Assembly (NCBI RefSeq): GCF_024662215.1
Contig: NZ_CP096115.1
Coordinates: forward strand, 806,001 to 870,000
Source: Methanoplanus endosymbiosus
GTDB lineage: Archaea; Halobacteriota; Methanomicrobia; Methanomicrobiales; Methanomicrobiaceae
Direction: 5' to 3'
DNA: 64,000 nucleotides
The position numbers were made by a program, and so were the translations under genes. Of this stretch, positions 13,508 to 47,067 are shown piece after piece (the stretch's first letter is position 1; every line of letters starts with the position of its first letter). The notes under the pieces were generated by a model. It had not been told where the DNA came from, ran no database searches, and saw only the letters and a program-made list of their open reading frames with translations.

Positions 13508-13509
13508 CC

Positions 13510-14769: not shown

Positions 14770-14806
14770 GAATATTACAGTGCCCTGAGAGACAATATAA
14801 TTTGTC

Positions 14807-14829
14807 ATTCTACGAAAAAATCGTAGAAT
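14807..14829. promoter_or_regulatory. Perfect 9-bp inverted repeat upstream of the AbiLi-like gene
   Basis: ATTCTACGA-AAAAA-TCGTAGAAT is perfectly symmetrical with a 5-base centre. It lies between the divergent start regions of the two ATPase pairs, so it may be a shared operator; a hairpin in the leader of the leftward mRNA is the alternative. Confidence 0.5.
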
Positions 14830-14984
14830 CTTACGACCAAAATAAGCATAATTATTAATCATATATAAATCAATATCATTCACAGCACATTTGTATTACA
14901 ATAGCACACAGATAAATATACTATTCAGTCTGTGTACAGCCAAATATCAACAGGAAATCTGTAAAATAAATAAGGGGCAGAAAG

Positions 14985-16076: not shown

Positions 16077-16079
16077 TTC

Positions 16080-21898: not shown

Positions 21899-23160
21899 TT
21901 TCTGTTTAATCCTTTCTCAATCTCTTTTGCTATTCCGGATGCCATAAGCGGAGGCACTGCATTGCCAATCTGAACGTACTGTGCTGTCCTCGGCCCCTCA
22001 AAGAGATAATTATCAGGGAAGGACTGAATTCTTGCTGCTTCCCTGACTGTAATTGATCTGGCATATTTTATATCCGGATAAATGAAATAATGGCCGTCTT
22101 TTGCAAGATGTGCCAGGACCGCATGTGAAAGCCCTTCCTTATCAATTACCTTAAAACGGTCTGTGAAAACCTTTCTTTTTTTATGGGTTTTTAATTCTTC
22201 AGGCAGTTCATCATAATGAAGTCTCTCTCTCCCGGATTCCCACTTGCTGATTACTTTCCGGTAAATTTCCCTGTCCCTTTCATTATGATTCCTTGCTATA
22301 TGATTTCTAACAACAGGCTCATCAGTTCTGAGACCTTTCTCTTTTAGATAGCCGGAAGATCTTTTGGTTAAATATTTCTGAGGATCATTACTGCCTTCTC
22401 CGGGATAGAGAGGCGGAAGATCATTAAAAAGATCTCCGGTATTATATTCTGATTTATTCTGCTGAAAATCAGGATATTCAAAATCAAGCTCTTTTTTCCA
22501 GCCGATATATATTATTCTTTTCCTGTTCTGGAGTACACCAAAATCAGCAGCGTTGAGTATTCGTGCATTGGGGTCTCCACAATACCCCAGTTTACCAATC
22601 TTTTCGTTAAAATCCTCAAAAACTTTCCCATTTAATGAACTTATAATTCCGGGAACATTTTCAAAGACAAATATTTTTGGTTTAAATGTTTCAATCGCCT
22701 TCAGATAATAGAGATATAACAGATTCCTTGGATCATTCACCATACCATCTTTTGAACGGCCCCTTCCTGCAAGGGAATATGCCTGACATGGAGGACCACC
22801 GATAATAACATCAACGGATTCCTTACCTGTACTATCCAGTCGTTTTTTTATCGAATTTATGAGATCTGATTCAGTTTCCGGAGATATTTCACAATGATAA
22901 ATTCCGGTGCCCTCAGGAAAATAATCCTGACTGCCGGCAATGAAATCTTCACGGGTTATTTCACCGGAAAAATATCTGTAATAGAAATCTTTTTTCCCAT
23001 TATTGCATAATTTATGATACCTAATCCTTGTATCAAGAGTCTGTGTGGCATATTCATTCATTTCAACATGAGCCACAAAATCAAAGGAATGCCGAATAAA
23101 ACCTTCGGTAAGACCGCCCGCACCTGAAAATAAATCAATGCCTGTATATTTCTCTTTCAC
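21895..23160 (-). CDS. DNA (cytosine-5) methyltransferase
   Basis: A 421-residue C5 methylase. Motif I is DLFSGAGGLTEGF (9-21), motif IV holds the catalytic cysteine in GGPPCQAYS (C125), motif VI is FENVPG (167-171), motif VIII is LQNRKRIIYIG, and motif X ends with QIGNAVPPLMASGIAKEI. It moves methyl from SAM to carbon 5 of cytosine at a target set by the region around 250-380, which cannot be read from sequence. It is the last gene of the leftward arm and the only methylase in the 25-kb island, so it is the likely self-marking enzyme. Confidence 0.94.
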   Translation of the reverse strand: MKEKYTGIDLFSGAGGLTEGFIRHSFDFVAHVEMNEYATQTLDTRIRYHKLCNNGKKDFYYRYFSGEITREDFIAGSQDYFPEGTGIYHCEISPETESDLINSIKKRLDSTGKESVDVIIGGPPCQAYSLAGRGRSKDGMVNDPRNLLYLYYLKAIETFKPKIFVFENVPGIISSLNGKVFEDFNEKIGKLGYCGDPNARILNAADFGVLQNRKRIIYIGWKKELDFEYPDFQQNKSEYNTGDLFNDLPPLYPGEGSNDPQKYLTKRSSGYLKEKGLRTDEPVVRNHIARNHNERDREIYRKVISKWESGRERLHYDELPEELKTHKKRKVFTDRFKVIDKEGLSHAVLAHLAKDGHYFIYPDIKYARSITVREAARIQSFPDNYLFEGPRTAQYVQIGNAVPPLMASGIAKEIEKGLNRN

Positions 23161-25689: not shown

Positions 25690-25756
25690 TCGGTCACCAC
25701 GGTAAAATCTCTTATCCCGGAACTGTTACCGGCACTCAGATGAATAATATCCATAC

Positions 25757-28606: not shown

Positions 28607-28618
28607 TTATAACCCTCC

Positions 28619-30551: not shown

Positions 30552-33500
30552 ATGGGGAATATCAATAAAACTCCGTTATTTAAAACCGGAGAAAATGTAA
30601 GATTTACATCGAATGGTAAAATAGGCACCATTAATGACATAATTGAGAAAAAGAATTCATTTGGATACCATGTAACTCTGGAAGGAAAAAAATACACCGT
30701 TCAGGAGAAGCATCTCTCAAAGATGGAGACTGAAGACAGGATATTTGACTCATTCAGTTCCGGAACAAAGGGGAATAAAGAGGACTTTCAGCTTTTTCAG
30801 ACATGGTTCCGCCTAAAAAGACCTGTTGAGGGTAATTTTTACAGTTATCTTGCCAGTAAAACTGTATTTAATCCTTACCAGTTTAAACCTCTGAGCAAAT
30901 TCATTTCTCCCGGTTCTGACAGTCGTCTGTTTATAGCAGATGAAGTTGGTGTCGGAAAAACTATTGAAACAGGAATTATTCTGACTGAACTTCTTGCACG
31001 CGGAAAAATTGACCGGAAATCTCCTGTATTAATTGTATGTCCAAACTCACTGTTACCCAAATGGGAAAAGGAGATGCGTAAGAGATTTAACCTGCATTTC
31101 CATATCCATGATGGAAAATCCCTGAAAAATTTCTTTAAATCTGCAAAAGACGGAAATATTCCCGATGGGATGATCTGGTCACTTGTCAGCCTGTCACTGT
31201 TGCGGACGGAAAAACATTATAGTAATCTAAGGGAACTTCATGAAAACAGGGAAATTCCCCTGTGGTCCCTTGTTGTTGTGGATGAATCGCATCATATGCG
31301 GAATTCCTCAACCTATAGCTATCAGACCGGAAAATATCTGAGTGATCTGACTGAAATGATGGTAATGCTTTCAGCAACACCACTGAACCTAAAGGACGAA
31401 GACCTCTTCAGTCAGATGCATATTCTCAATTCCAGACTGTTCCCCGATTTACAGTCATTTTCAAATATCCTCTCCCCTCTCAAAAATATTAACATATGCA
31501 GACGTCTTCTGCTTCAGGATACAGAAGAATCCAGAGCTGAAGTTTGTGGAATTCTCAGAAACCTGAAAACCGGTGCTACAGGCGAAGCAATATCGGGCCA
31601 TCCCGGAATAAAAAAACTTGAAGAGAGGCTCTCATCGGAAAAACCCCTTTCAGCAGAAGAAACAGCCCATTATGACAGAGTACTTGGGAATTTAAGTCCC
31701 ATTGACAACTCCTTTACCCGTACGCTTAAGAGAGAAGCATTTGAACACAGGGTGACAAGGGAGCCTATTAAAGTTCCTGTAAAGCTTTCACCGGCCGAGA
31801 AAGATTTCCATGATGAAATAATTGAACTTACAAAGGATCTGTATCTTGATAAGGGTGGCGAACCTTCCGCTATTGGATTTGTAACAAACGTTCCACGCAG
31901 AATGGCCGGGAGCTGCCTTCCTGCAATGAAGGAATATCTTGACTGGTGCATAGAAAATAATTCCGTATATGATTTGAAACCTTCGGAAGATGAACCGGAT
32001 GATGACCTGGCTTTTGGTGAAATGGCTATCAGCCAGGATATTAAGGACAGATTTATTCAGCTTCGTAATGATGCCCGGAAAATTTCCGGGCTGGACACAA
32101 AATACGATGAATTTCTGAAATTAATAGGCAAACTCCAGGCTGAAAGTGAGAATCCACAGATTGTAGTCTTCTCATTTTTCGTAAGAACTCTTAAATATCT
32201 TGAAAAAAGGCTGAAAGAGGATGGATACAGAGTCGGTCTGATATACGGCGACACACCAAACTCAGGTGACGGCCAGGCACAGTCAAGATATGAAATTATG
32301 GAGGCATTTGAAAGGGGAGAATTTGAAGTACTCCTTTCAAGTGAGGTTGGCGGAGAAGGTGTTGATTTCCAGTTCTGTCAGTCCATAATAAATTATGACC
32401 TGCCATACAACCCTATGAGAATTGAGCAGAGAATTGGGAGAGTTGACCGTTTCGGACAGAAGGCAGATAAAATATTTGTTGCATGCATGTATATCCATGA
32501 CAGCATTGATGAAAATATTTATGACACCCTTTACGTGAGAATAAACCTTATTCAGGACAGCATAGGAGCACTTGAACCTATTCTCGGCAATACTCTTGCT
32601 GATCTCAACAATGATATAATACAGGGTTCCTTTACCGATAAACAGATCCAGGAAAGAATTCGGACAATGGAAATAGCCGTTGAAAATTCAAGAATCGAGA
32701 TGGAAAAATACGAACAGAACCGTAAGGAACTGCTTGGGGAAGACCATTTCAACAGCATTATACAGAAGCCTTCAATGAGTACTGAGTTTGTGCAGCCTGT
32801 GGATGCACTGTGGCTTACGGACAGATGCCTTTCATCATGGGATGGGTGTGAATTTAAACAGACTGATTCAGATTCCGGAAAAATCAGACTCTCAAAGGCA
32901 GTAATGTCAGAACTTGAGGATTTCAGGAGAAGACCCGGTTCAGAAGGATGTGAAGATGAACTGGGCCGTATATCAGAATCAAAGGGTTTTACAGAGGTCG
33001 TATTCAACGGAATGGCAGCAACACAAAGGATGAATGCTGTTTTTCTGCCACCATGCGGATTCTGGATAAAATTCCTGCTTTATAAGCTTGAAATGAGTGA
33101 AAATATACCATGTTCCTTTTCTCTGTCTCTTGAAAGCAGTGATGCCGGAATCAGTCCGGGAGATTATTCTGTTCTGTTTTATGAAGTTACACTTGAAGGT
33201 TTTTCCAGGGAAATTAACCTGATGGCCGTGCCTGTTGATATTCAGACAATGCAGGTTCCAAAATGCGATTTCAGAAAATTTTCACGCTTACTGAAAGAAT
33301 ATTCTGTGTCCTGTGAGGATTATTACACAGATTTTGATATTGAAGAAGTCAGTGACACAGCAGAAGATGCTCTGGAATCATTTATGGAGGTGGAAATTTC
33401 TGAGATGGAAGCTGAAAACAGCTACAGAATTCAGTCTTATGTTAACTCTGTTGAAAAGTCAGCAGAATCCCAGACTACTGCAGTTGACAGAAAAATACAG

Positions 33501-33683
33501 GAACATTGTGAGAAGAGAATAAGGGATAATCAGGAACCAAACGAGAAGTTTCTCCGCTTAATGCAATACCAGAAGGATAACATAAAAAAAAGAAGTGAAA
33601 ACAGAATTAAACAGCTAAGGGCTAAAGACGGGCTTTTTATGGGGAAAGACCTTGTTGCTGTTTCTGTACTAAAGGTGATCTAA
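30552..33683 (+). CDS. drmD: SNF2-type helicase, DrmD-like
   Basis: A 1043-residue DNA translocase. A small N-terminal beta domain (6-55) precedes the helicase: Walker A IADEVGVGKTIETG (K136), DESH box (244-247), motif III LSATPLN, and motif VI RIEQRIGRVDRFGQ (626-635). The size, DESH box and C-terminal helical region match DrmD of class 1 DISARM and RapA-like SNF2 proteins. It heads the rightward arm. CAGGGA precedes the ATG by 5 bases and a TATA-like ATATTTATTT lies about 35 bases upstream. The DrmD label is by resemblance and context. Confidence 0.78.
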   Translation: MGNINKTPLFKTGENVRFTSNGKIGTINDIIEKKNSFGYHVTLEGKKYTVQEKHLSKMETEDRIFDSFSSGTKGNKEDFQLFQTWFRLKRPVEGNFYSYLASKTVFNPYQFKPLSKFISPGSDSRLFIADEVGVGKTIETGIILTELLARGKIDRKSPVLIVCPNSLLPKWEKEMRKRFNLHFHIHDGKSLKNFFKSAKDGNIPDGMIWSLVSLSLLRTEKHYSNLRELHENREIPLWSLVVVDESHHMRNSSTYSYQTGKYLSDLTEMMVMLSATPLNLKDEDLFSQMHILNSRLFPDLQSFSNILSPLKNINICRRLLLQDTEESRAEVCGILRNLKTGATGEAISGHPGIKKLEERLSSEKPLSAEETAHYDRVLGNLSPIDNSFTRTLKREAFEHRVTREPIKVPVKLSPAEKDFHDEIIELTKDLYLDKGGEPSAIGFVTNVPRRMAGSCLPAMKEYLDWCIENNSVYDLKPSEDEPDDDLAFGEMAISQDIKDRFIQLRNDARKISGLDTKYDEFLKLIGKLQAESENPQIVVFSFFVRTLKYLEKRLKEDGYRVGLIYGDTPNSGDGQAQSRYEIMEAFERGEFEVLLSSEVGGEGVDFQFCQSIINYDLPYNPMRIEQRIGRVDRFGQKADKIFVACMYIHDSIDENIYDTLYVRINLIQDSIGALEPILGNTLADLNNDIIQGSFTDKQIQERIRTMEIAVENSRIEMEKYEQNRKELLGEDHFNSIIQKPSMSTEFVQPVDALWLTDRCLSSWDGCEFKQTDSDSGKIRLSKAVMSELEDFRRRPGSEGCEDELGRISESKGFTEVVFNGMAATQRMNAVFLPPCGFWIKFLLYKLEMSENIPCSFSLSLESSDAGISPGDYSVLFYEVTLEGFSREINLMAVPVDIQTMQVPKCDFRKFSRLLKEYSVSCEDYYTDFDIEEVSDTAEDALESFMEVEISEMEAENSYRIQSYVNSVEKSAESQTTAVDRKIQEHCEKRIRDNQEPNEKFLRLMQYQKDNIKKRSENRIKQLRAKDGLFMGKDLVAVSVLKVI

Positions 33684-33699
33684 AGGAGGTGTTCTGAAG

Positions 33700-36600
33700 A
33701 TGTCGGTAAATATTGAAAATGAAAGAACACAAAAGCTTGACAGGATAAAAAGATTCCCACCGGAGGAATCAATACACGAACTTCACTCTTTAAGGAAAGA
33801 CTATGACTGGGCAATTCCAGGTTACAGAAACAGTCTGAATATATTAAGTGATACAGCATATCAGGACAGGAAGCATTTTATTCTTGAACTAATTCAGAAT
33901 GCTGATGATGCAGATTACTCAGAAAGAAATCCGGCAATCAGATTTGTAATAGATAATTCCGGAATAAAAATTAATTATAATGAAGATGGTTTCTCCGTTG
34001 ACGATGTAATAGCTATTACAGATACAGGCGAATCCACAAAAATAAAAAAAGACCGTTCATCCCATACTTTTATTGGCGAAAAGGGAATTGGCTTTAAATC
34101 TGTTTTTGCCCTTGCGTCTTCAGTTGAGATCAGGAGTCACCCCTGGTATTTCAGACTTAATAAGGATGAATGTGTTATTCCCTATCCTGTTGAAAACAAA
34201 AAAACTGAACAGACTGAAGGTACTGAATTAAAAATAACTTTTGTAGACCCGGATAAAGTAAATCCGGTTGCTGATGAAATTCTGAAAATTGCAACAGGAC
34301 AGATGGAGTCCATGCTGTTCCTGAATCAGTTGTCCTCCATGACTGTTGAGGACAGAAGAAAAGAACCTCCGGTCTTTAAAGAACTTAATATTCAGCCTGA
34401 AAACAGAAACGGGGAATATCTGGAGATAACCTCAGCCGGAAATCAACATAAAAGAAAGTACTACCTTTATCGTAAGGATCAGGACTTCCCAGGAGATCTT
34501 GTGAAACAAAGATGGGAAAAATTTGATTTCGGAGGGAGTTCATTAAAAAGGCGTGTTTCAGTAGCCTTTCCGGTTGTTGATTCAGCAGAAACCCTGCCTG
34601 AAGGAAGGTTATACTGTTATCTCCCGACTCTTGTAACACTCCCTTCCCCTATGTTCCTTCAGGTTGACGGTGCCACTACAGCTGACCGTGAAAAGCTCCA
34701 CGATCCTGAGAACAATGAATGGAACAGATACATGCTGTCTGCCCTTCCGGGAATAATTGCAGACGCAGTTATTTCACTTAAGAAAGTTCCTGCAGCAGCT
34801 GACAGGCTGCCAGATTATATCCCGTCAGACAGCGGGGATCAGCAGCTTTCACCTCAGTTTGATAAGGTTATAGAGCTGCTTAAGAATAAAAAATGGGTTA
34901 AAACCATGTCATCCGGAAAGGATGAGTGGGTTTTACCTGAGGATGCAGTTATCCCTTCAGAATTCCTGAGAACACTAATAAAGACTGAACCTCTGTTCAG
35001 ATCAAGGGCAGAAAAATATCTTGGGAAAAGATTTGTAAATACTGAATGGATAGTTAAAAAAGAGTGGAAATCCAAACTAAAATCTTACGGTGTTCCTGAA
35101 CTGGATGATATGAAATTTATAGAAATTATCCACGAGGGTGTAATTCCCAAAGAATGGATGAAAAGTTCAGAGAATCTGATTTCACTTTATTCAGAAATCA
35201 GAACTGTATTATCTAAAAATAAACCAAATGATTACCATCACGGAATAAAATATGAAAATTTATGTGATTCTCTGCTCAGATCTCCAATATTTCCGCTTCC
35301 CGAAAGAGGATTTTTCCCTCTAAAATCTCCAGAAAAGGAAAATAAGATATTCTGGATAAAATCCCGGTCCTCAAGAAAAACTGGTCTTGAAGACGGTGTA
35401 GATTATACAATAGTCAGTACCGAATACACTTATGAACCAAGAATCAGAACTGACAGGAAATATACTATAAATGATGAAGCGGAATTAAAATTAAAAATAG
35501 AGAGAAACAGGAAACTAAGAGAACTATTAAAGGAACTCAATGTTCAGGAACTGGATGATGAAAATATATTAAAGGAACTTCAGATTCCATATCTTATTGA
35601 AAATACATTTTCCAAGGATAATGGTAAAACAAAATATAGCATCCTCTATGCAGTTTTTGAAAAATACAGGAACAGAATAAATAAGGACGGCTCTGAAACT
35701 GACAAATTCAACGAAAACCTTTCCAGATTAGGAGAAGCTGAATTTATATCTGAAAAAGGGAATATTTTTAAAATAAAGGATTTATTATTACCGGAAATAC
35801 TTAAACTGTCCTCCGAAGATCATATTTACGACAATTTTTTTGATAATCTGAAAATTCCAGGCAATTATTTTCCAGCATCAAAAAAACCCAGAAGAAAGTC
35901 AGATCGAAGAGCAGATTCAGAGAAAATAAAAAAACTAAAAGAAAACTTCCGTGAATTTCTGATATTGACCGGAATTCGTCACCTGCCCACAATATATACT
36001 ATAAAAGAAGAATATGAGAATGTAAATGATTTCAGAGAGAAACAACCGAAAATATTTGATGTCTGGGATAGGAAAATCAATTCTAATTATACCTATTATA
36101 ACCCAGTAACTACTTATCGGCTTGAACTTGACTCTTATACAAAAAAAATAATAAATAATTGGTCAGATGAAATCTGCTATGTTTCAAAACATATCTATAA
36201 TCAATGGTGTTCTGAGAAAGAAGGAATTAAAAATCCATTTTCTTGGAGAAAGATAAAATTTGGAGATTTTTGTACAGAATATTTTAGAAGAACCGATCAA
36301 AATAAAATATTTAGAGATCCACACTGGTGTGGACTGGAAAGATCACTTATTCCTGTTCAGGACGTTAATGATGAAACGGTTCCTTCAGGAAACTGTATAA
36401 AGGTAAAAGAATCAGATTTGAAGAAATTAAAGAAAGTAGGGAATTATTTCCACATATGTGCCGAATCAGATTGTGTAAACCCGGATGAAAATGGCAAATA
36501 TCACCACGAATATCTGGAATCACTTGAAGTTAAATACCCGGATGTAAATCTGATAAACAGAAAACTAAATGATTCAAAAGCTGATTCTGAATTATATGAA

Positions 36601-38298
36601 GATATTCTGAAAACTGTAACTGAATTTCACTCCGTGGGTACCAACATAAGGGACCTCAAAATAAAAGATAAAGTTACAGGGAATATCAGACCGGTTACAG
36701 ACTTCTGCATGGGAAAAGAGTCTCCCGATAACCGGCCTCTTATTGAGGTCCAGTATGGCAAAACCGGAACAGAGATTGGCGAAATTGTTGGACTTCAGGA
36801 TGCAGCCGGAGCCGGAATTTATTCGGGATTTTTTGAGAGTATATTAAAGAAAAGAGTTATTTCAGGGATAAATCAGGAGATCCTTCTGGATATCCTCCGT
36901 AGTTATCCATCATGGAGCAGATCAGATAAAAGAATGATCGACAATGAATTTTCAGATTTCCTGAGTAGTTCCGGAAGATCTGAAGCAACAATTGTATTTG
37001 GAGATAAAGAAGCTTATGATTCCCTTTACAATGCAAAGATATGGGTTTTTAATGCCGAAGTCTCTGATGATGAACTTTTCGGAATTAAAGAAACTGCAGA
37101 AAACATTGGCTTCATATTCTCAGAAGAGATCGGAGAACTTATTGCTGATGGAAAAAAAGCAATCAGTGAAGAAGAAATTAACTCTCTTAACAGAATTCTC
37201 TTAGAATATGAAAAAAATCTCAGCAATCAAAAAAGCAAATCAAAACTCAAATCCAGATTAAGCAGCATTGGAATATCAGATTTTAATGTTACTGACTTTT
37301 TCAGAGCCAATAAAATATTCCGTAAATTGGACTCCGAAGAAGAAGGCAGACCGATTTCTCTTCCATATTTTGATACCCGGAAAAATATTTTTTATATTAG
37401 CTCAGATGCAGACATCTGTGATATTTTTGCTTTTGTCCTTGAATCTGCCGACTATGGTAACTCTGAGGACCTTATTGAAAGAGTCAGAAAAATTCATGAT
37501 AATATTCTGAAAGGAGATCAGTCCACTGAAACTGATGAATCAGTGGATGATATTGATACAGAAACAGAGATTACTCAGCCGGAAGATAACACTCCGGAAA
37601 ATTCTGTGGATGAAATCAGAAAATTATCAAAAGAAAATCTTGTCCGGAATAAAGGTAATTCGTCCGCAGTGGAAGAAAAATCCGGATGGAAAGTCAGCCC
37701 TGATCCCATTGAAGATTTAAAAATAAGAGAAATTCTCAAAAAAAGACTGAAAAAGAGTCTGGAAGAAGGACCGGAGGTTTATGACCGGAGATTAAGAAAA
37801 CAAAGAAAAAGAACATCAGGAAAAAGCGGCAGTACAGCATTCAAAGATCCCGATTCTGTTGATCCAAAATCTTACTTTGAAGAAGAATACGGGGGCAGAT
37901 GCCAGGTATGTGGTATACAACTCAGACTTAAAAACGGGAACCACTATTCTGTGACATATCATATTGTAGAGAATCAAAAAGGAAAAACATGGTACAAAGA
38001 CCGGCCGTTCAATACAATATGTATGTGTCCAAACTGCCATGCACTCGCCAAAAATGGCGGTTGTGATTTATTAAGTGGTATTTTTGAAGATGCAGAAAAA
38101 TATGACAATAATGATCTGATTCCCGATGAAGTTCCGGAATTTAACGGCGATTATTACCTGACTGAAGTTGAAATTAATGGTGAGAAAAAAACCCTTAAGA
38201 TCAGTCCTAATCATATGAGAGAATTTGCTGCATTCTACTGTATGGAAAGAAATAACGGAACAGACGATGATAAACAGAATAAAAGCAATTCAGAATAA
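33700..38298 (+). CDS. Giant sacsin-like GHKL ATPase with C-terminal HNH-like domain
   Basis: A 1532-residue protein. The N-terminus is a sacsin-type Bergerat ATPase: LELIQNADDAD (62-72, N67), NEDGF (94-98) and IGEKGIGFKSVF (125-136). About 1000 residues of unknown, charged sequence follow. A zinc/HNH-like module ends the protein: C1401/C1404, H1421, N1438, C1443/C1446 and H1447. The first histidine of the usual HHI is replaced by Tyr1420. A perfect ribosome site (AAAGGAGGT) overlaps the stop of the preceding gene, so it is in the same operon. It is probably an ATP-gated nuclease or scaffold; this is inference. Confidence 0.85.
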   Translation: MSVNIENERTQKLDRIKRFPPEESIHELHSLRKDYDWAIPGYRNSLNILSDTAYQDRKHFILELIQNADDADYSERNPAIRFVIDNSGIKINYNEDGFSVDDVIAITDTGESTKIKKDRSSHTFIGEKGIGFKSVFALASSVEIRSHPWYFRLNKDECVIPYPVENKKTEQTEGTELKITFVDPDKVNPVADEILKIATGQMESMLFLNQLSSMTVEDRRKEPPVFKELNIQPENRNGEYLEITSAGNQHKRKYYLYRKDQDFPGDLVKQRWEKFDFGGSSLKRRVSVAFPVVDSAETLPEGRLYCYLPTLVTLPSPMFLQVDGATTADREKLHDPENNEWNRYMLSALPGIIADAVISLKKVPAAADRLPDYIPSDSGDQQLSPQFDKVIELLKNKKWVKTMSSGKDEWVLPEDAVIPSEFLRTLIKTEPLFRSRAEKYLGKRFVNTEWIVKKEWKSKLKSYGVPELDDMKFIEIIHEGVIPKEWMKSSENLISLYSEIRTVLSKNKPNDYHHGIKYENLCDSLLRSPIFPLPERGFFPLKSPEKENKIFWIKSRSSRKTGLEDGVDYTIVSTEYTYEPRIRTDRKYTINDEAELKLKIERNRKLRELLKELNVQELDDENILKELQIPYLIENTFSKDNGKTKYSILYAVFEKYRNRINKDGSETDKFNENLSRLGEAEFISEKGNIFKIKDLLLPEILKLSSEDHIYDNFFDNLKIPGNYFPASKKPRRKSDRRADSEKIKKLKENFREFLILTGIRHLPTIYTIKEEYENVNDFREKQPKIFDVWDRKINSNYTYYNPVTTYRLELDSYTKKIINNWSDEICYVSKHIYNQWCSEKEGIKNPFSWRKIKFGDFCTEYFRRTDQNKIFRDPHWCGLERSLIPVQDVNDETVPSGNCIKVKESDLKKLKKVGNYFHICAESDCVNPDENGKYHHEYLESLEVKYPDVNLINRKLNDSKADSELYEDILKTVTEFHSVGTNIRDLKIKDKVTGNIRPVTDFCMGKESPDNRPLIEVQYGKTGTEIGEIVGLQDAAGAGIYSGFFESILKKRVISGINQEILLDILRSYPSWSRSDKRMIDNEFSDFLSSSGRSEATIVFGDKEAYDSLYNAKIWVFNAEVSDDELFGIKETAENIGFIFSEEIGELIADGKKAISEEEINSLNRILLEYEKNLSNQKSKSKLKSRLSSIGISDFNVTDFFRANKIFRKLDSEEEGRPISLPYFDTRKNIFYISSDADICDIFAFVLESADYGNSEDLIERVRKIHDNILKGDQSTETDESVDDIDTETEITQPEDNTPENSVDEIRKLSKENLVRNKGNSSAVEEKSGWKVSPDPIEDLKIREILKKRLKKSLEEGPEVYDRRLRKQRKRTSGKSGSTAFKDPDSVDPKSYFEEEYGGRCQVCGIQLRLKNGNHYSVTYHIVENQKGKTWYKDRPFNTICMCPNCHALAKNGGCDLLSGIFEDAEKYDNNDLIPDEVPEFNGDYYLTEVEINGEKKTLKISPNHMREFAAFYCMERNNGTDDDKQNKSNSE

Positions 38299-38433
38299 AG
38301 AGAATTCTGCCATAAAATTGCTTCAGAAGAAAAATCTATGGTTTGTACCCAGGGATATAATAAATCAATAATACAAACAGATATTTTTTAAACATGAGAA
38401 TACAATAATTTATTAATCAGGGAATATGGGGAA

Positions 38434-40323
38434 ATGACTTATTATAATATCCGGGAAAACATCGGCTTTCCTGACAATTATCAGAAAGAAATAATAGAAA
38501 CGGCACCAGGAAAAAGAATGATCGTGGATGCCGGTCCCGGAACAGGTAAAACAGCAGTTGCCTGTGCCAGAGTTGCATGGCTCATCGACAACGGCGGTGT
38601 AGAACCGGTAAACATATGGCTTGTCAGTTTTACAAGAACAGCAGTTAAGGAAATTCAGGACAGAATAAAAGATTATCTGAATAACCCCGATGATGTTTAT
38701 TCTGTAAGGACTGCAACACTTGATTCACACGCATGGAAAATACATTCCGGATTTGATAAAAAAGCAGCATTAACCGGAAGATACGAAGACAATATCGAAA
38801 ATCTGAAATATAAAATAAATGAGAATAAAGAAGAAGCAGATTTCATCAGAAATCAGATTAAGCATCTTATAATTGATGAAGCGCAGGACATTGTCAAAAC
38901 CAGAAGTGAACTTATACTGTCAGTTATTAATCACATGGATAAAAGTGCAGGTATTTCAGTCTTCTCTGACGATGCGCAGGCAATTTACGGTTTTAACAGA
39001 GGGAAATACGGACAAATTCTTACAGATTCACTAAAGGAGAATTACGGGGATGAATTCTCCGTAAAACATCTGAAGACAATTCACCGTACAGAATCTCCCG
39101 GACTCAAAAAAATATACAGAGATACAAGAACACAAATCCTTAATAATTCAGATAAGAATAAATTTGAAGCTGTAAGGGAGGACATTATCAGTTACTCCGA
39201 AAAAATACCATACAAAGACAAATATATATTTTCAGATAAGAGCTGTTTTTATCTGCACCGGAAAAAAGCGGGTGTACTAAGAGATTCAGGATTTGTTAAA
39301 ATACCACACCGCCTCAGAATGTCCGGACTTCCTGTATGCATTTATCCATGGGTCGGTATAACACTTCATGATTATACTGAAAAAAAACTGAAAAGAAAGG
39401 ATTTTTACGAACTGTGGGATGAAAGAATAAACGGAAAGAACTTCGGAACAGCAAAGTCTGAAGATGCCTGGAATATTATATGCAGACTGGGCGGCGAATC
39501 CGGGACAAGGATCATTATGGATGTTCTGAGACAGTACCTTGGTGCATCCAGACCTCCTGCGGAGGTTTGCTACCCGGAATTTGGTATATCCGGGCCTGTA
39601 TTAAGTACAATTCATGCATCAAAGGGGAGAGAATCCAGAGAAGTCCGCCTTGTTCTTAACAAAAATTATACAGAAGATGATGAAGATAAAAAAAGTGACG
39701 ATGAAGAAGCCAGGGTACTGTTTGTAGCGGCAACAAGGGCCCGCGAAAAACTTCTGTACAGCGAAATGAATCAGATAAGAACCCTTGATGTTAAGGATTC
39801 ACAAAGAGAATTCTGCCGGACAAATAAAAAAAATTCCCTTCAGATACAGATTGGTATAGCAGGCGATATAAATGCCGAATCAGTTGCAGGAACCGGACAT
39901 TTTTCATCTCCTGATGATATAATTCAGAATATCAGAACAATGGCCGAAAAATGCACGGAAATGACTGATGCATATGCATGGCGGGATGCAGAATGCGGCC
40001 ACTTTTACAGAATTGTACCCTGTGAATCTAAAGGACCAAAAATGTGGGAATTCAATTCCTCCGAACTTAAATCACTCAGAAGGAAATCGATTGCTGTCTT
40101 TGCCGGGTCACTTAACAATGACATATTTAAAGCAAAAGAAAAAATTGGCGCAGAATCCAAATCTATACCCCCCAATCTGAATTACCTCAGAATTTTTGGT
40201 CTCCGGACAATTGTTCTTCCTCCGGGGAGTAAAATGTCTGAAAAACTACACGAACCATGGTCTGAAAGCGGAATTATTCCTGCACCCATTATCTCAGGAT
40301 TTCCGACAATTTATTTTAACTGA
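38434..40323 (+). CDS. UvrD/Rep-like superfamily 1 helicase
   Basis: A 629-residue helicase. Seen are Walker A DAGPGTGKTA (K39), motif Ia LVSFTRTAVKEI, Walker B IIDEAQDI (148-152), motif III FSDDAQAIYGFNRG and motif VI VLFVAATRAREKLL. Such proteins unwind DNA 3' to 5'. A 135-bp gap with an AT-rich TATA-like box precedes it, so it may also have its own promoter. The DrmA gene starts 12 bases after its stop. It is not a standard DISARM component. Confidence 0.87.
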   Translation: MTYYNIRENIGFPDNYQKEIIETAPGKRMIVDAGPGTGKTAVACARVAWLIDNGGVEPVNIWLVSFTRTAVKEIQDRIKDYLNNPDDVYSVRTATLDSHAWKIHSGFDKKAALTGRYEDNIENLKYKINENKEEADFIRNQIKHLIIDEAQDIVKTRSELILSVINHMDKSAGISVFSDDAQAIYGFNRGKYGQILTDSLKENYGDEFSVKHLKTIHRTESPGLKKIYRDTRTQILNNSDKNKFEAVREDIISYSEKIPYKDKYIFSDKSCFYLHRKKAGVLRDSGFVKIPHRLRMSGLPVCIYPWVGITLHDYTEKKLKRKDFYELWDERINGKNFGTAKSEDAWNIICRLGGESGTRIIMDVLRQYLGASRPPAEVCYPEFGISGPVLSTIHASKGRESREVRLVLNKNYTEDDEDKKSDDEEARVLFVAATRAREKLLYSEMNQIRTLDVKDSQREFCRTNKKNSLQIQIGIAGDINAESVAGTGHFSSPDDIIQNIRTMAEKCTEMTDAYAWRDAECGHFYRIVPCESKGPKMWEFNSSELKSLRRKSIAVFAGSLNNDIFKAKEKIGAESKSIPPNLNYLRIFGLRTIVLPPGSKMSEKLHEPWSESGIIPAPIISGFPTIYFN

Positions 40324-40334
40324 GAGGAACACAT

Positions 40335-43300
40335 ATGCCATCTGAAAAAGAACGTGAACTATTACTAAAAAGACTTAAAGAGGACATTTTAGGTCCATAT
40401 GGAGAAGATGAGATTCTGGAGTCAAAGCCATCTGATGTTTATCTTACCGGAATATTATGGCCCAGACAGACACGTTATGATGAGGAACAGGATGAAAGTC
40501 TGAATACAGAGTCCGGTTCAGGTGAAGAGGGTGCCAATGATTCTGATGAGGAAATAGCTGCATCATCAATGAACCGCCAGTCGGTTGCAGGAATCTCATT
40601 TTCAGTTTTGATTAATGGAGAAAATCCTTCGATAATGGCAACAGTATCATTTGCACAATACAGGCACTTTAAGGAAAAGCAGACTGATGAAAAAACCGGA
40701 GAGGAAAAAGAGACTGCAAAGTGGAGAAGGATCCCTTATCTCTTTGAAAATATACCCATATCCACTGAAAAAAGCGGTTCAGAAAGAATTAGCCTGAATT
40801 ATAACGGAGAAACTTCAGGGATATATCTCCACAGGAAAATCGTTTCGAGAGAAAAATTCTGCCTTGTCACTATAACACTTGTTAATGAAAGAAATCCGGA
40901 CATTTCATCCGGGAAAAAAACAGTAAATGTAGAATCAGCAATATTTCAGACAGGAATAAAAATATGTCCAGGCAATAACAGTGAACTTGTTCCGAGACCT
41001 TCATCGGGAACAGACAGATTTGCCGGAAAAACCGATGAGGATGCATCTCTTGCCCTGCTTTACAGGAACTCTCCTGAGTTTGCAACCGGACATACCTGTT
41101 CGGCTGAATGGACCGCAGATCCGGATGACAGAAGAAAAGCAGTTCAGGTCAGAACAGCGTGGATACCAAAAACCAAAGTAGTGGCCACAAATCCCCATGG
41201 TCATGAGGTATTCTCTGAGATCCTAAAAAGTTCCGATGATTCCCCGCTATCTCCTGAATATCTTTCAAGGGCTTCAGATAAAGATCTTAAAGATTCCCTT
41301 CTTAAAATTCCCCGGCTTTACAAAAGATGGATTGAACTGAAAGAAACTGAAATAAGCTCAGTTGATCCGGATTACCGCAGGGCTGCGGAACAGAATCTCA
41401 GTGAATGCCTTGAAGTTATGAACAGAATGCAGGCTGGAGCACTCAGAATATCTGAAGATCCTGTAATGACAGAGGCTTTCAGGCTTGCAAACCGTGCAAT
41501 TCATCTGCAGTACAGCTGGAATAAAGAAAGATCTAAAAAAGGACCATTTATGTGGCGGCCATTTCAGCTTGGATTTATTCTTTTATGTGCAGAATCAGTT
41601 GCAGACAGAAAACATCCTGACAGGGAAGTTATGGATCTGCTCTGGTTCCCTACAGGAGGAGGAAAAACAGAGGCATATCTTGCACTTATAGCCTTTATTG
41701 CATTTTACAGAAGATTATCCTGTGATAATCCGGATGATGGTGCAGGTGTTGCTGCCGTGATGAGGTACACTCTAAGGCTTCTTACAACACAGCAGTTTTC
41801 AAGAGCTGCATCACTCATACTTGCATGTGAAGCAATCCGGAGAGGGAAAACCGGTTATAATTGTTCAGATAAGCTTGGAAATGTCCCTTTTTCAATAGGT
41901 CTGTGGGTCGGTGGAGGAGCAACTCCAAATAACTACAAAGATGCAAAGGGTTATCTCTCCGGTTCCAGAACAAATGAAAATCAGGTTGCATCTCCGAAAC
42001 AGCTTCTTTTATGCCCTGCGTGTGGAAAAAAACTCAAATGGTCTGCTGATGACGAAAAAAGAAAGATTGTTGTTAAATGTCAAAATAAGAACTGCATACT
42101 GAACAGTGAGGAATCACTGCCCGTATATACTGTTGATTCTGACATCTATGATGAACAGCCGACTTTACTTATAGGAACTGTGGACAAATTTGCCCAGATT
42201 GTCCGTAATAAAGAAATAAACAGGTTATTTGGAATAAATACAAATAATCCTCCGGATCTCATTGTTCAGGACGAACTTCACCTTATATCCGGACCGCTTG
42301 GGACAGTAACGGGATTATATGAGGTAGCAGTTGACCGGCTTTTTACCAGAGATAAACATCCGCCAAAAATTATCGGATCAACAGCTACAATAAGAAGGGC
42401 AGACGAACAGATAAAGTCACTTTTTAACAGAGATACCTGCAGGTTTCCACCTTCGGGAATTGATGTTGAGGATTCAGGTTTTGCAGTTACTGATCCGGAA
42501 GCTCCCGGAAGATTATATGCAGCAGTAACAACCGCCGGAAGATCTGGTAAATTTACCCTGCAGGCCGTTTCTGCCTCACTTCTGCAGTCTGCCGGAGAAG
42601 GAATTAATGATGATAAACTCGCTGATCCGTACAGAACTCTTGTAACTTACTTTAATTCCCTTAGAGAACTTGGCGGTGCCCTCGTCCTTATGCATGATGA
42701 CGTGAATGATTCTTTATTAATAATCGCCGAAAGAAGAAAAGAAAATAAATTCAATCCGGAGAGAATAGAGGAACTGACATCCAGAAGAACTCAGGAAGAA
42801 ATCAGGGATATGCTTGAAGATCTTACAATTCAGGCAGGGGAGGAAGATACAGTTGATATTCTTCTTGCAACAAATATGCTCAGTGTTGGTGTCGATATAC
42901 CCAGGCTTGGCCTTATGGTCGTCCAGGGCCAGCCAAAAGGAGTTTCAGAATATATTCAGGCAACAAGCCGTGTAGGAAGAGGAAATGTACCGGGCCTTGT
43001 TGTTTCTATCCTTAATAACGGAAAAGTCAGGGACAGATCAAGATATGAAACATTTGTTTCCTGGCACAATACACTGTACCGCGATGTTGAGGCTACAAGC
43101 GTCACACCTTTTGCTTCCCGGAGCAGGGATCGTGCATTAAAGGCGGTGCTTGTTGCACTTATAAGAAATCTGGGGACTGATATGCTTGAAAATCCGGATT
43201 TATCATCATTAAAAACTGAAGAAAAAGAAGAAATTATCAGATATATCACTGATAGGGCAGAATCCATAGACTGCTCAGAAAAAGATGTTGAGAAGGAGAT

Positions 43301-43544
43301 ACGCAGAAGTATTGATGTATGGTGGAGGATGGCTCCGGAATATTACCTTTACAGAAGAGAACCGGAGAAATCCCTCCTGCAGGATGCTGATGCAGCAGCA
43401 ACCAGAAGAGCAATGGGAATAAATCCCGGTTGTGCCTGGCCTGTAATGAATAACATGAGAAGTGTTGAAACATCCACACCCTTCAAACTCCTCAGAGGAC
43501 TGAAAAATCTTGAAGAATTGAGGAGTGATAATAATGGCATATAA
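40335..43544 (+). CDS. drmA: DrmA-like superfamily 2 helicase
   Basis: A 1069-residue helicase. Walker A is WFPTGGGKTEAYL (K444), Walker B is QDELHLI (DELH, 646-649) and motif VI is QATSRVGRG (875-883). A zinc-binding insert with CPAC at 560-563 and CQNKNC about 25 residues later lies between the motors. This matches DrmA of DISARM, which binds DNA and forms a complex with DrmB. GAGAGGA lies before the ATG. Its stop overlaps the next start by 11 bases, which couples DrmA and DrmB translation. Confidence 0.87.
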   Translation: MPSEKERELLLKRLKEDILGPYGEDEILESKPSDVYLTGILWPRQTRYDEEQDESLNTESGSGEEGANDSDEEIAASSMNRQSVAGISFSVLINGENPSIMATVSFAQYRHFKEKQTDEKTGEEKETAKWRRIPYLFENIPISTEKSGSERISLNYNGETSGIYLHRKIVSREKFCLVTITLVNERNPDISSGKKTVNVESAIFQTGIKICPGNNSELVPRPSSGTDRFAGKTDEDASLALLYRNSPEFATGHTCSAEWTADPDDRRKAVQVRTAWIPKTKVVATNPHGHEVFSEILKSSDDSPLSPEYLSRASDKDLKDSLLKIPRLYKRWIELKETEISSVDPDYRRAAEQNLSECLEVMNRMQAGALRISEDPVMTEAFRLANRAIHLQYSWNKERSKKGPFMWRPFQLGFILLCAESVADRKHPDREVMDLLWFPTGGGKTEAYLALIAFIAFYRRLSCDNPDDGAGVAAVMRYTLRLLTTQQFSRAASLILACEAIRRGKTGYNCSDKLGNVPFSIGLWVGGGATPNNYKDAKGYLSGSRTNENQVASPKQLLLCPACGKKLKWSADDEKRKIVVKCQNKNCILNSEESLPVYTVDSDIYDEQPTLLIGTVDKFAQIVRNKEINRLFGINTNNPPDLIVQDELHLISGPLGTVTGLYEVAVDRLFTRDKHPPKIIGSTATIRRADEQIKSLFNRDTCRFPPSGIDVEDSGFAVTDPEAPGRLYAAVTTAGRSGKFTLQAVSASLLQSAGEGINDDKLADPYRTLVTYFNSLRELGGALVLMHDDVNDSLLIIAERRKENKFNPERIEELTSRRTQEEIRDMLEDLTIQAGEEDTVDILLATNMLSVGVDIPRLGLMVVQGQPKGVSEYIQATSRVGRGNVPGLVVSILNNGKVRDRSRYETFVSWHNTLYRDVEATSVTPFASRSRDRALKAVLVALIRNLGTDMLENPDLSSLKTEEKEEIIRYITDRAESIDCSEKDVEKEIRRSIDVWWRMAPEYYLYRREPEKSLLQDADAAATRRAMGINPGCAWPVMNNMRSVETSTPFKLLRGLKNLEELRSDNNGI

Positions 43545-45372
43545 TCTTGGCAAACTCAGAAGGAGTGCAGTTCTTATGACACACGGGCCAGGTTCAGTAG
43601 TTGACTTCAGGGCAGGAGATGCTGCTGTATCAGCTGTAGTTTCCGGTCTTGATTCTTGGGACTGGGATTTCGGACCTGAAGGCCTTAAAAATGAGCAGGT
43701 TATTTTTGAAGAAAGACTCCAGAAAAAACTCGGAGTAAACGGATTTCGTCTGCCGCCTGTTGTTGAGGAAGATTTTTTTGGGAACAGGAAAACAGAAAAG
43801 GCCCTTTCAGCAGTCAGATTCCCAAACTGGCTGCAGTGTCCGGAATGCAAAAAAATCGGACCTTCAGATAAATGGATGGAAGATCCGGGAAGTGCAGGGC
43901 TTTACTGCCCCTCATGTTCAAACAGAAAACCAGGGAGACAGAAAGCATATGTTGTCCCTGTAAGATTCGTCATTGCCTGTAAATCCGGCCATCTTGATGA
44001 TTTTCCCTGGCACTGGTGGGTAAATCATGAGGAAAACTGTAACAATAAAAAACAAAGGAGTTTTCTAAAACTTGAATCAAAAGGGGCAGGTCTTGCAGGT
44101 ATTATTCTAAGCTGTCCGGAATGTGGTGCATTCAAATCACTTGACGGAATATTTGGTGAAAAGGCACTGAAGGGTTTAACATGCTCCGGAAGAAGGCCAT
44201 GGCTGTATGGTAAAAATGAAGAATGTGACCAAACTCCAAGAGTTCTTCAGAGAGGAGCTTCAAATCTCTATTTTCCGGTAATAGAATCTGCGCTTAGTAT
44301 TCCGCCATGGTCAGATGAACTCAGGGAAGAGATTGGAACTTACTGGAATGATATAATTAATACTGATGATGAAGACAGAATCAGTTTTGTCAGAATACTC
44401 GCAAAGAACAGCCTGAAAAAAACACTTGAGTATCTCCATATGACACCGGAAGAACTTGTCAGGAAAATCAAATCAAGAAAAAAAATGTATGAAAAAATAG
44501 ATCCTGAAAGAATAAAGGATGAGGAGTATCTGCAGTTTACTCTTGGTACAGATACCAGAAGAGAGGATGGGGGTGAATTTGAAACAAGAAAAGAATCTGT
44601 TCCTGAAAATATCAGACCATATATTAATGGAATTGTACGTGCTGTAAGACTCAGGGAGGTCCGTGCAATCAGAGGTTTTACGAGGATCAATCCTCCGGGA
44701 GATGAGGATGACATAAATATATCTCCAATATCTGTTGCAAAAAAAGACTGGCTTCCTGCAATTGAAGTCAGGGGAGAGGGTATATTCATAGATTTTAATA
44801 AGGAAACTCTTAACAGGTGGAAAAAAGGAGAATCTGTATGTAAAAGGGCAGCAGAACTGAATTTCAGGATGGCGGAGGACTGGATGAAGAAATACGGGAG
44901 CAAAACGCCACCCAGAAAAATAACCCCACGTTTTCTCCTTATACATACCTTTGCACATGCCCTCATGCGCCAGCTGACACTGGAATGCGGTTATTCATCA
45001 GCTTCACTGAGAGAAAGACTTTATGTAAGCGAAAACACTCATGAATCAGAAGAAATGGCAGGTCTTCTGATTTACACTGCAAGTCCGGATTCTGACGGAA
45101 CACTTGGAGGACTTCAGAGGCAGGGTGAATCCGGAAGAATTGAGGAGACAATTATTTCAGCGATAAAGTCGATGGAATGGTGTTCTTCCGATCCCCTGTG
45201 TATTACAGGGATGATGGCAGTTCCGGAAAGCCATTCATTTGCATCATGTCATGGTTGCTGTATGGCACCTGAAACATCCTGTGAAGAGTTCAACCGTTTT
45301 CTTGACAGGAGTATGCTAATCGGAGATAATGATGATCCTGAATCCGGATTTTTCAGGAAATTATTAGGTTGA
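43534..45372 (+). CDS. drmB: DrmB-like DUF1998 protein
   Basis: A 612-residue protein. The N-terminal block RRSAVLMTHGPGSVVDFR, two CxxC pairs (WLQCPECKK and LYCPSCSN), and the DUF1998 domain (RFLLIHTFAHALMRQLTLEC, then SDGTLGGLQRQGES and SCHGCCMAPETSCEEFNRFL) match DrmB. DrmB joins DrmA in DISARM and helps load it on incoming DNA. ATG 43534 has TTGAGGAG 8 bases upstream; a GTG at 43525 would add three residues. The order DrmA-DrmB is the conserved core. Confidence 0.88.
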   Translation: MAYNLGKLRRSAVLMTHGPGSVVDFRAGDAAVSAVVSGLDSWDWDFGPEGLKNEQVIFEERLQKKLGVNGFRLPPVVEEDFFGNRKTEKALSAVRFPNWLQCPECKKIGPSDKWMEDPGSAGLYCPSCSNRKPGRQKAYVVPVRFVIACKSGHLDDFPWHWWVNHEENCNNKKQRSFLKLESKGAGLAGIILSCPECGAFKSLDGIFGEKALKGLTCSGRRPWLYGKNEECDQTPRVLQRGASNLYFPVIESALSIPPWSDELREEIGTYWNDIINTDDEDRISFVRILAKNSLKKTLEYLHMTPEELVRKIKSRKKMYEKIDPERIKDEEYLQFTLGTDTRREDGGEFETRKESVPENIRPYINGIVRAVRLREVRAIRGFTRINPPGDEDDINISPISVAKKDWLPAIEVRGEGIFIDFNKETLNRWKKGESVCKRAAELNFRMAEDWMKKYGSKTPPRKITPRFLLIHTFAHALMRQLTLECGYSSASLRERLYVSENTHESEEMAGLLIYTASPDSDGTLGGLQRQGESGRIEETIISAIKSMEWCSSDPLCITGMMAVPESHSFASCHGCCMAPETSCEEFNRFLDRSMLIGDNDDPESGFFRKLLG

Positions 45373-45378
45373 TCATTT

Positions 45379-47067
45379 ATGGCAAAAATGTGGCCGGCAG
45401 ATATTCCTGCCGATATAAGGGAAAATATTCTCAGAAGTGCTGAAATCCGTGTTTTTGAGAAATTCAGACAGGAACTGGATGACAGTTTTATTGTTTTTTA
45501 CTCAAGACCATGGCTTGGTCTGACAAGGTATGGTGAGGAAGTTGATGGGGAGTGTGATTTTGTTGTTGCCCACAGAGAATACGGAATTCTGACAATAGAA
45601 GTCAAAGGAGGAGGAATCTCATATAATCCCGAAACAGATGTCTGGAAGACCACAGACCGCAACGGAATAAATATCAGAATAAAAAATCCTGTTTTTCAGG
45701 CTAAAAATTCCAAATATCAGATTCTTGATAAGCTTAACAGATCACCACTGTGGAGAACAAGGAGAATCAGGAATGCACACGGTGTTATTTTCCCGGATTC
45801 CGTTATGCCAGAAAGGGATCTTGGCATGGATGCACCTCTTGATATTTTCTGCTTTGAGGCTGAATTTGAAACAGATTTAAATGGCTGGATTTGTGACATG
45901 ATGAAAGCAGGATCTGAACCTGAGTTTGGCAAAAATCCTCTCGGTGATGACGGAATAAATGCACTTGAGGACCTGCTTGCAAGACCTTTCAGACTTCATT
46001 ATCCTCTTGGAAATATGATCCGGGATGATGAAAATGAAATCCGTTACCAGACTCAGCAGCAGTTTCATCTATTTGAAATGATGAAAAAAATCAGAAAAAT
46101 TGCAGTCTACGGAGCAGCAGGAACCGGTAAAACTGTCCTGGCTGCTGAAGAAGCTCTCAGATGTGCTGACGAAAATAAAAAGGTTCTTTTCGTCTGCTAC
46201 AACAGTCCTCTTGCAGAATATCTTGATAAAAAAATAGGTTATAAAAGAAACATAGATGTTTTTACTTTTCATAAATTATGCAGTGATTCAGCAGCAAAAG
46301 CAGATCTAAAAATTCCTTCCAATGTACCTGAGGATATACTTTTCAGATATGTATATCCTTACCTTTTAACAGAGGCTTTCAGAACCGGAAATATTCCCCG
46401 TTATGATGTGTTGATTATTGATGAGGGACAGGATTTTTTCAGAAACTGGACGGATGCCATCATGGAAACTTTAAATCCGGATGGTCCGGGTACTGCAAGA
46501 ATATTTCTGGATAATAATCAGAGAATTTATGGTTCCTTAAATTCAGTACCTGCCGAATTTGAGAGATCACCCTTAGTTCTTTCAAGAAATCTCAGAAATA
46601 CAAAAAAGATATTTAATGCATCTGAAAAATATTACTCCGGTTCACCGGTGACTCCTGCCGGACCTGACGGTGTTGACATTGAATACTGTTACACCAAGCC
46701 AATCGTCCCAGAAATAAGAAAAACACTTGAAAAAACTGTTCAGAGGCTGATTTGTGATGAAAAAATACTGCCAGAGGATATTACAGTTCTGGCACCTTCT
46801 GTTTCAGAACTAAAAAAGATAAATCCTGCCGATAAAATAGGAGATTATTATACAACTGATGCCGGAAACACTGCTGAAGGGTATATATGTGCAGACTCCC
46901 TCAGAAGATTTAAGGGTCTGGAAAGCAGTGTGCTTATAATTATTGGAACACCGGATATTTATGCAACAGATGAACTGATGTATACCGGAATAACAAGAGC
47001 AAAATCAATGCTTATTTTCATTGGAAGTGATTTTCAGAAGTTGAAATCTCAATCAGACCTTCAATAA
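45379..47067 (+). CDS. NERD nuclease-domain/UvrD-like helicase fusion
   Basis: A 562-residue protein. The N-terminal 100 residues are a NERD domain with the PD-(D/E)XK-like residues D60, E74 and K76 (GECDFVV then LTIEVKGGG). A helicase follows: Walker A YGAAGTGKTVLAA (K251), Walker B IIDEGQDFF (348-352) and RRFKGLESSVLIIIG with a closing YTGITRAKSMLIFIG. NERD domains are predicted nucleases. It stands where drmC (a PLD nuclease) is expected in DISARM, 6 bases after DrmB, so it may replace that nuclease. That role is inference. Confidence 0.85.
   Translation: MAKMWPADIPADIRENILRSAEIRVFEKFRQELDDSFIVFYSRPWLGLTRYGEEVDGECDFVVAHREYGILTIEVKGGGISYNPETDVWKTTDRNGINIRIKNPVFQAKNSKYQILDKLNRSPLWRTRRIRNAHGVIFPDSVMPERDLGMDAPLDIFCFEAEFETDLNGWICDMMKAGSEPEFGKNPLGDDGINALEDLLARPFRLHYPLGNMIRDDENEIRYQTQQQFHLFEMMKKIRKIAVYGAAGTGKTVLAAEEALRCADENKKVLFVCYNSPLAEYLDKKIGYKRNIDVFTFHKLCSDSAAKADLKIPSNVPEDILFRYVYPYLLTEAFRTGNIPRYDVLIIDEGQDFFRNWTDAIMETLNPDGPGTARIFLDNNQRIYGSLNSVPAEFERSPLVLSRNLRNTKKIFNASEKYYSGSPVTPAGPDGVDIEYCYTKPIVPEIRKTLEKTVQRLICDEKILPEDITVLAPSVSELKKINPADKIGDYYTTDAGNTAEGYICADSLRRFKGLESSVLIIIGTPDIYATDELMYTGITRAKSMLIFIGSDFQKLKSQSDLQ

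Follow-up and report, generated by a model that had tools for sequence, protein, structure and literature searches.

Described systems of the YprA family comprise DISARM, Dpd, Druantia, ARMADA, BRIGADE and TALON (PMC12458937). DISARM class 1 consists of DrmD, DrmMI, DrmA, DrmB and DrmC, and class 2 consists of DrmMII, DrmA, DrmB, DrmC and DrmE. DrmC, a nuclease of the phospholipase D (PLD) type, is usual and dispensable in these systems, and the DISARM nuclease has been described as a mystery (PMC9142583). Restriction operons that involve GHKL ATPases have been described as well (PMC2292703), and McrBC has been found accompanied by a DISARM-like cassette (PMC11090510). Here we analyze a run of six genes within a 64,000-nucleotide stretch of the Methanoplanus endosymbiosus genome (the window, i.e. 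bases 806001-870000 of a 3.16-Mb single-contig genome). The locus is probably a DISARM-related, putatively antiviral system of a UvrD-DrmA-DrmB-NERD type (module B), in front of which stands a separable SNF2-sacsin(HNH-like) gene pair (module A).

The six open reading frames (ORFs) lie on the + strand at positions 30552-47067 of the window, in the order SNF2, sacsin/GHKL, UvrD, DrmA, DrmB, NERD-helicase:

30552..33683, + strand: module A gene 1, SNF2/DrmD-like helicase of 1043 amino acids (aa) (PADLOC DrmD PDLC02623, 1.6e-123)
33700..38298, + strand: module A gene 2, sacsin-type GHKL ATPase of 1532 aa with a C-terminal zinc/HNH-like motif (NCBIfam sacsin, PADLOC TmtA)
38299..38433, + strand: module junction, an AT-rich gap of 135 base pairs (bp) with 27% GC, the largest of the run
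38434..40323, + strand: module B gene 1, UvrD-type superfamily 1 (SF1) helicase of 629 aa (Pfam UvrD-helicase, 3e-27)
40335..43544, + strand: module B gene 2, DrmA, YprA-type superfamily 2 (SF2) helicase of 1069 aa (PADLOC DrmA PDLC02571, 1e-215)
43525..45372, + strand: module B gene 3, DrmB (DUF1998/MZB) of 615 aa, alternative ATG at 43534 (PADLOC DrmB PDLC02583, 2e-94)
45379..47067, + strand: module B gene 4, NERD nuclease fused to an SF1/Schlafen-type helicase, 562 aa (Pfam NERD, 3.4e-7)

The intergenic gaps measure 16, 135, 11, -20 (or -11 from ATG 43534) and 6 bp. A first-pass annotation had proposed six rightward genes in this order, labelled SNF2, GHKL, UvrD, DrmA, DrmB and NERD/UvrD-like; the ORFs agree with the order, the searches with PADLOC, Pfam and NCBIfam confirm the labels, and its gap figures (16, 135, 12, -11, 6) lie within one base of ours. 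It was also right that DrmC is missing: the run has no PLD gene, and its position is taken by the NERD-helicase.

The four genes of module B form a conserved cassette, tightly coupled and intact in its catalytic motifs, which is related to the DrmA and DrmB of DISARM. DrmA and DrmB (DUF1998), which form the core of DISARM, are encoded here by separate adjacent genes; DrmA matches the solved structure 7s9v in the PDB (6e-142) and has an NCBIfam DrmA score of 948.0, just below the cut-off of 950, and DrmB scores 528 with NCBIfam DrmB (cut-off 240) and matches 7s9v_B (3e-88). The Pfam match of the NERD domain exceeds the family cut-off. Its residues E22, E58, D60, E74 and K76, together with the Walker A and B motifs of the fused helicase, are invariant in 49-50 of 50 NERD-helicase homologs; the same holds for Walker A K39 and Walker B D148/E149 of UvrD (84/84) and for K444 and D646/E647 of DrmA (111/111). 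In Serratia DrmA, V1296 is the sole base contact and the proposed sensor of methylation, and the ATPase activity of Serratia DrmAB is lowered by DNA that carries 5-methylcytosine (m5C) (PMC9142583). The window DrmA has V1044 at the aligned position, which is valine in 103 of the 111 sequences.

The recurrence of the cassette was determined from an alignment-based DrmA scan of 84,980 species genomes (a single-protein DrmA scan of genome contigs returned none). Of the 304 relatives obtained, the 80 best were examined together with 10 kb of sequence on either side, as far as the contig extended. A tree was built from 111 distinct DrmA sequences, i.e. those of the scanned loci plus archaeal, plasmid and viral loci. 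UvrD is located immediately upstream of DrmA in 80 of the 87 UvrD-type loci; the seven exceptions comprise three loci cut off by a contig end, a broken locus, a locus with a frame shift, one (L093) in which Mza-type genes lie between UvrD and DrmA, and one in which UvrD is downstream. Median gaps within the cassette are -8, -14 and -1 bp, and UvrD and DrmA usually overlap or are separated by at most 30 bp. A NERD-helicase directly follows DrmB in 48 of the 87 loci (49 when a broken-up case is counted), PLD-type DrmC occurs in five, and no locus has both. Among these DrmA relatives and the plasmid and viral records, the order UvrD-DrmA-DrmB spans at least ten phyla: members were found in Pseudomonadota, Bacteroidota, Synergistota, Desulfobacterota, Acidobacteriota, Actinomycetota, Planctomycetota, Myxococcota, Bacillota and Chloroflexota, as well as in archaea. 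Plasmids of Rhizobium and Azospirillum carry copies, and others lie on viral contigs.

Closer to the host, single-protein queries against 393 genomes of its phylum recovered DrmA, UvrD and NERD-helicase together in three. Two members of the host's family (G096 and G385) have UvrD, DrmA, DrmB and NERD-helicase in this order and no SNF2 or sacsin genes, with identities to the four window proteins of 60/69/76/70% and 40/55/58/44%, respectively; the UvrD gene of G096 carries a fused extra SF2 helicase. A further genome, G113, has UvrD, DrmA and DrmB with a PLD-type DrmC. The first-pass annotation had proposed a separate DISARM-related type, to be given up if the order were unique or if the accessory genes usually occurred without DrmA/DrmB. 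For UvrD-DrmA-DrmB-NERD the proposal survives, given the wide recurrence of the order, the position of UvrD and the NERD-helicase in the place of DrmC. As a separate observation, three solitary NERD-helicases of one archaeal genus (L183, L184 and L185, 41-42% identity) have no DrmA/B nearby.

In the tree, 16 class 1-type tips are set off (support 1.0) from the other 95, which consist of 87 UvrD-type sequences and eight class-2-like sequences from loci without UvrD. In two class-2-like loci (L141 and L162) proteins that match the NERD-helicase profile are encoded upstream of DrmA and not after DrmB. With class 1 the locus shares full-length homology of DrmA and DrmB to the solved Serratia DrmAB, the methylation-sensing valine and an SNF2 helicase upstream. 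It differs from class 1 in that DrmC is lacking, UvrD and NERD-helicase are added, DrmA lies on the other branch, and the SNF2 protein, which falls below the DISARM_DrmD cut-off, groups with sacsin-linked SNF2 genes; among the genes identified at 21-49 kb of the window there is no adenine methylase (DrmMI).

With class 2 the locus has two things in common: a DrmMII-type m5C methylase lies in the neighbourhood, and DrmA belongs to the same major branch, where the DISARM systems with an m5C methylase are found. These two points, and the fact that DrmE adjoins UvrD-DrmA-DrmB-NERD in locus L051, would fit an ordinary class 2 DISARM in which UvrD and NERD-helicase are unrelated chance neighbours. 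We consider this quite improbable, since the position and close spacing of UvrD upstream of DrmA in so many loci, across many phyla, rule out a chance neighbourhood and thereby largely refute it. Moreover, the window has neither DrmC in the run nor any match to DrmE among the proteins scanned (PADLOC, Pfam, NCBIfam), UvrD lies upstream and NERD-helicase downstream of the DrmA/DrmB pair, and the methylase is located outside the operon.

Other described systems share parts of the cassette. In ARMADA type II, too, helicases of the SNF2 and UvrD/GajB-like kinds accompany a YprA-type helicase (PMC12458937). However, in ARMADA, TALON and BRIGADE the YprA-DUF1998 protein is unsplit (PMC12458937), whereas DrmA and DrmB of the window are split as in DISARM; ARMADA also has a C-terminal Vsr nuclease on YprA and a PglX-like methylase, whereas the window DrmA and DrmB have no nuclease match in Pfam. 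TALON has a NERD nuclease too, but in the window this domain is fused to an SF1 helicase, and the TPR-CSD and TBP genes of TALON are not among the cassette genes. The UvrD protein scores with GajB models, yet unlike in Gabija there is no adjoining GajA (an OLD/TOPRIM ATPase). The combination of a GHKL ATPase, an SF2 helicase, a cytosine methylase, Vsr and an HNH or other nuclease recalls the MORC/paraMORC operons (PMC2292703) and Mza, for which, however, no DrmA/DrmB is described; the sacsin-type protein of the window is, in addition, not a MORC. In the literature searched, which did not include the original DISARM paper, we found no description of UvrD-DrmA-DrmB-NERD, and module B is apparently a widespread, so far undescribed DISARM type.

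As YprA-family and UvrD helicases also function in repair (PMC12458937), module B might alternatively be a DNA-repair operon similar to YprA/MrfAB and not a defence system, but this is highly improbable: the split into DrmA and DrmB is the DISARM arrangement (PMC12458937), the distribution is patchy (the three genomes out of 393 mentioned above) and includes plasmids and viral contigs, and the cassette has methylase and Vsr partners and is placed among AbiL-like, Mza and PDC-S01 genes.

Several observations weigh against the proposal of a UvrD-DrmA-DrmB-NERD type. The 80 loci were picked by DrmA similarity, and the counts therefore describe DrmA relatives and not all DISARM systems. The eight class-2-like DrmA sequences branch inside the group of 95, beside its actinobacterial part (support 0.97), and because of this the UvrD type is to be regarded as an architecture and not as a proven clade. 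Actinobacterial cassettes lack the NERD-helicase, which in turn also occurs as a solitary gene (in G106, G296 and G023). Finally, Mza genes stand between the methylase of the window and DrmA, which are 18.4 kb apart, and this methylase may be a part of Mza.

The status of module A is different. The first-pass annotation had taken all six genes together for one unit that recurs, for which we find no support: the six-gene order was found in the window only, with no second instance among the searched genomes, and the two nearest cassettes (those of G096 and G385) are without module A. In all nine archaeal places outside the window where a relative of the SNF2 gene occurs (E-values up to 1e-60), the next gene encodes a sacsin-type GHKL protein, and the stretches read at these nine places contain no DrmA/B. 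The pair is present in G233 (61/46% identity) and, in more distant form, in other archaea, and it is this free-standing pair of G233 to which the window sacsin protein is closest (46%, over its full length). The sacsin-paired SNF2 genes cluster together, apart from the DrmD of class 1 DISARM; the window protein scores 288 with NCBIfam DISARM_DrmD (cut-off 610). In L049 a related SNF2 gene lies after the cassette, and the gene next to it is not a sacsin gene. A larger form of module A, consisting of an SNF2 helicase and a sacsin-type protein of about 2000 aa, was seen in two archaeal loci (L186 and L187).

The sacsin protein itself scores 60.4 with NCBIfam sacsin (cut-off 50) and just misses the cut-off of Pfam SACS (1.2e-7). 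As in Tiamat, its N-terminal region is of the sacsin-type GHKL kind (PADLOC TmtA, 5e-59, with the match limited to residues 42-816); unlike in Tiamat, it is paired with an SNF2 helicase and has an HNH-like end. This end has the motif C-x2-C ... H ... N ... C-x2-C-H, of which C1401, C1404, N1438 and C1443 are invariant in seven relatives, and gives weak PDB matches to TagI (E 0.07) and EcoKMcrA (E 0.24). The AlphaFold model of the C-terminus is poor (predicted local confidence, pLDDT, 45), so the HNH assignment relies on the sequence. Of the idea that NERD and HNH domains supply the nuclease role, the HNH part is weakly supported, as the first histidine of the motif is replaced by arginine in two relatives (L042 and L043).

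That the six genes nevertheless form a single obligate machine, i.e. a separate DISARM type with the sacsin-HNH and SNF2 proteins as essential subunits, would be in line with their common strand, the at most 135 bp between genes and the GC content at third codon positions, which is low and alike in both modules (0.295-0.374). The 135-bp gap at 38299-38433 could carry a putative promoter of module B; sigma-70 and terminator scans of it, which do not cover archaeal promoters, stayed at chance level, and an Rfam search of 20-50 kb of the window gave zero matches.

The position before UvrD also speaks for such a machine. Actinobacterial loci (L099-L128) have here a GHKL-SF2 helicase fusion of about 1600 aa that overlaps or abuts UvrD and heads the operon, often with a second, divergent GHKL gene of about 700 aa beside it that resembles the PADLOC candidate PDC-M33A. 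Likewise, L070, L078 and L089 have a GHKL-SF2 fusion in this slot, and the arrangement has thus arisen or been kept several times; most of the fusions overlap UvrD. Twenty co-directional cases of GHKL plus SF2 before UvrD were found, the window included, and GHKL ATPase genes occur in 28 of 87 UvrD-type loci versus 2 of 24 other DISARM loci. Given the kinship of the actinobacterial loci, the DrmA tree suggests about three or four independent GHKL events. In Rhodobacterales and relatives an SNF2 helicase and a protein of about 1000 aa diverge from UvrD, and in L051 the slot is taken by DrmE.

The window sacsin pair thus occupies a slot held elsewhere by other ATPase-helicase combinations, and this above all is why we do not call its position pure chance. 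The reading of a stacking of two modules by chance alone is weakened by profile searches, in which many relatives had GHKL genes ahead of UvrD; since the GHKL-helicase fusions are directly before UvrD there, cooperation between modules A and B is plausible. Even so, the single obligate machine is unlikely: its order was found nowhere else, the SNF2-sacsin pair lacks DrmA/B in all nine other archaeal places, the two nearest cassettes do without module A, and the window sacsin protein is nearest to the free-standing pair of G233 and not to the fusions. On the test proposed in the first-pass annotation, module A therefore fails. A wider reading, which we put forward tentatively and with some doubt, is that UvrD-DrmA-DrmB-NERD may constitute a third class of DISARM that brings a nuclease of its own, with a socket before UvrD that would take interchangeable pairs of a chaperone-like ATPase and an SF2 helicase, such as sacsin-HNH with SNF2 in the window and the GHKL-SF2 fusions in Actinobacteria. 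These pairs would serve as sensors, and the six genes would then act as one machine.

Four motor proteins in one unit, which had been regarded as exceptional, are not, as SNF2 helicase, UvrD, DrmA and NERD-helicase are combined in 17 loci, i.e. four helicases each. The SNF2 partner of about 1000 aa (L079 4490-7456, with equivalents in about 16 loci) is conserved and has no Pfam or PADLOC match; its predicted fold has helical ends around beta-sandwich domains, and the fold matches are unspecific. In Paenibacillus (L121 6207-7649) an Hsp70 gene (Pfam 6e-41), another chaperone-like ATPase, directly precedes UvrD-DrmA-DrmB-NERD.

Upstream of module A the window contains the following genes:

21485..21898, + strand: Vsr-type nicking endonuclease (PADLOC Vsr, 1e-25)
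21895..23160, - strand: DrmMII-type cytosine-5 DNA methylase (PADLOC DrmMII PDLC02649, 2e-173, full length)
23242-25689, - strand: MzaE (PADLOC, 4e-95)
25757-28606, - strand: MzaC (PADLOC, 8e-195)
28619-30106, - strand: MzaB (PADLOC, 6e-108)

The Mza genes (23242-30106), a neighbouring system that may or may not be part of the locus, are divergent from module A and separate it from the methylase, which is on the opposite strand at 7.4 kb from the SNF2/DrmD-like gene. The claim that the system has no methylase of its own is true within 30552-47067 but overstated in view of this neighbouring gene. As a feature of the type, the absence of a methylase is not supported: an m5C methylase and/or Vsr lies within 13.5 kb in 36 of 49 NERD-type loci, a count in which the window, with its methylase 18.4 kb off, is not included. 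In the two nearest relatives (L038 and L039) a methylase-Vsr pair adjoins module B, and their Vsr proteins are the closest to that of the window (62% and 59%, respectively); L038 has an MzaB-like GHKL gene and L039 does not. The window methylase may act for module B, for Mza or for the two of them, and the DrmMII-type methylase is likely a shared modification enzyme. Mza-type genes were also seen at the UvrD-type loci L038, L051, L088, L093 (there between UvrD and DrmA) and L122.

From the observed presence and order of the genes and the integrity of their motifs we infer the following mechanism. The methylase at 21895-23160 would mark host DNA with m5C. DrmAB would load on unmethylated single-stranded or 5'-overhang DNA of the invader, as shown for Serratia DrmAB, and then translocate, with V1044 standing in for the methylation-sensing V1296. 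Further unwinding would come from UvrD and from the SF1 motor of the NERD protein, and the NERD nuclease, encoded in the gene position of DrmC, would cleave the exposed DNA. Module A may be an ATP-driven helicase and chaperone-like add-on, autonomous in other archaea and here supporting or backing up module B. Module A would spend ATP on its GHKL and SNF2 parts, perhaps acting on DNA-bound complexes, with nicking by the HNH-like end.

A DISARM type with an invariant NERD nuclease-helicase at the DrmC position makes the question of DNA destruction directly testable in bacteria, among which the carriers include Pseudomonas and Rhizobium. Examples are the cassettes of Pseudomonas sp. Irchel s3b2, locus L053, and of a Rhizobium plasmid, locus L129. 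The repeated pairing with sacsin-like and other GHKL ATPases ties DISARM to the GHKL-type restriction operons. Existing annotation tools detect only the DrmA/DrmB half of the cassette: PADLOC assigns UvrD to GajB and the NERD protein to reverse-transcriptase systems, RefSeq labels the DrmA of this type 'helicase-related protein', and neither PADLOC 2.0 nor RefSeq counts the UvrD and NERD genes among the components of DISARM.

Further upstream in the window, PADLOC identifies two AbiL-like gene pairs, at 12896-14883 (AbiLi 3e-87 and AbiLii 2e-22) and at 14985-16712 (AbiLi 3e-105 and PDC-M38B 1e-13), and the region is therefore a defence island. Immediately 3' of module B lies another candidate defence gene, which encodes a PDC-S01-type ATPase (47858-49171, 2e-118).

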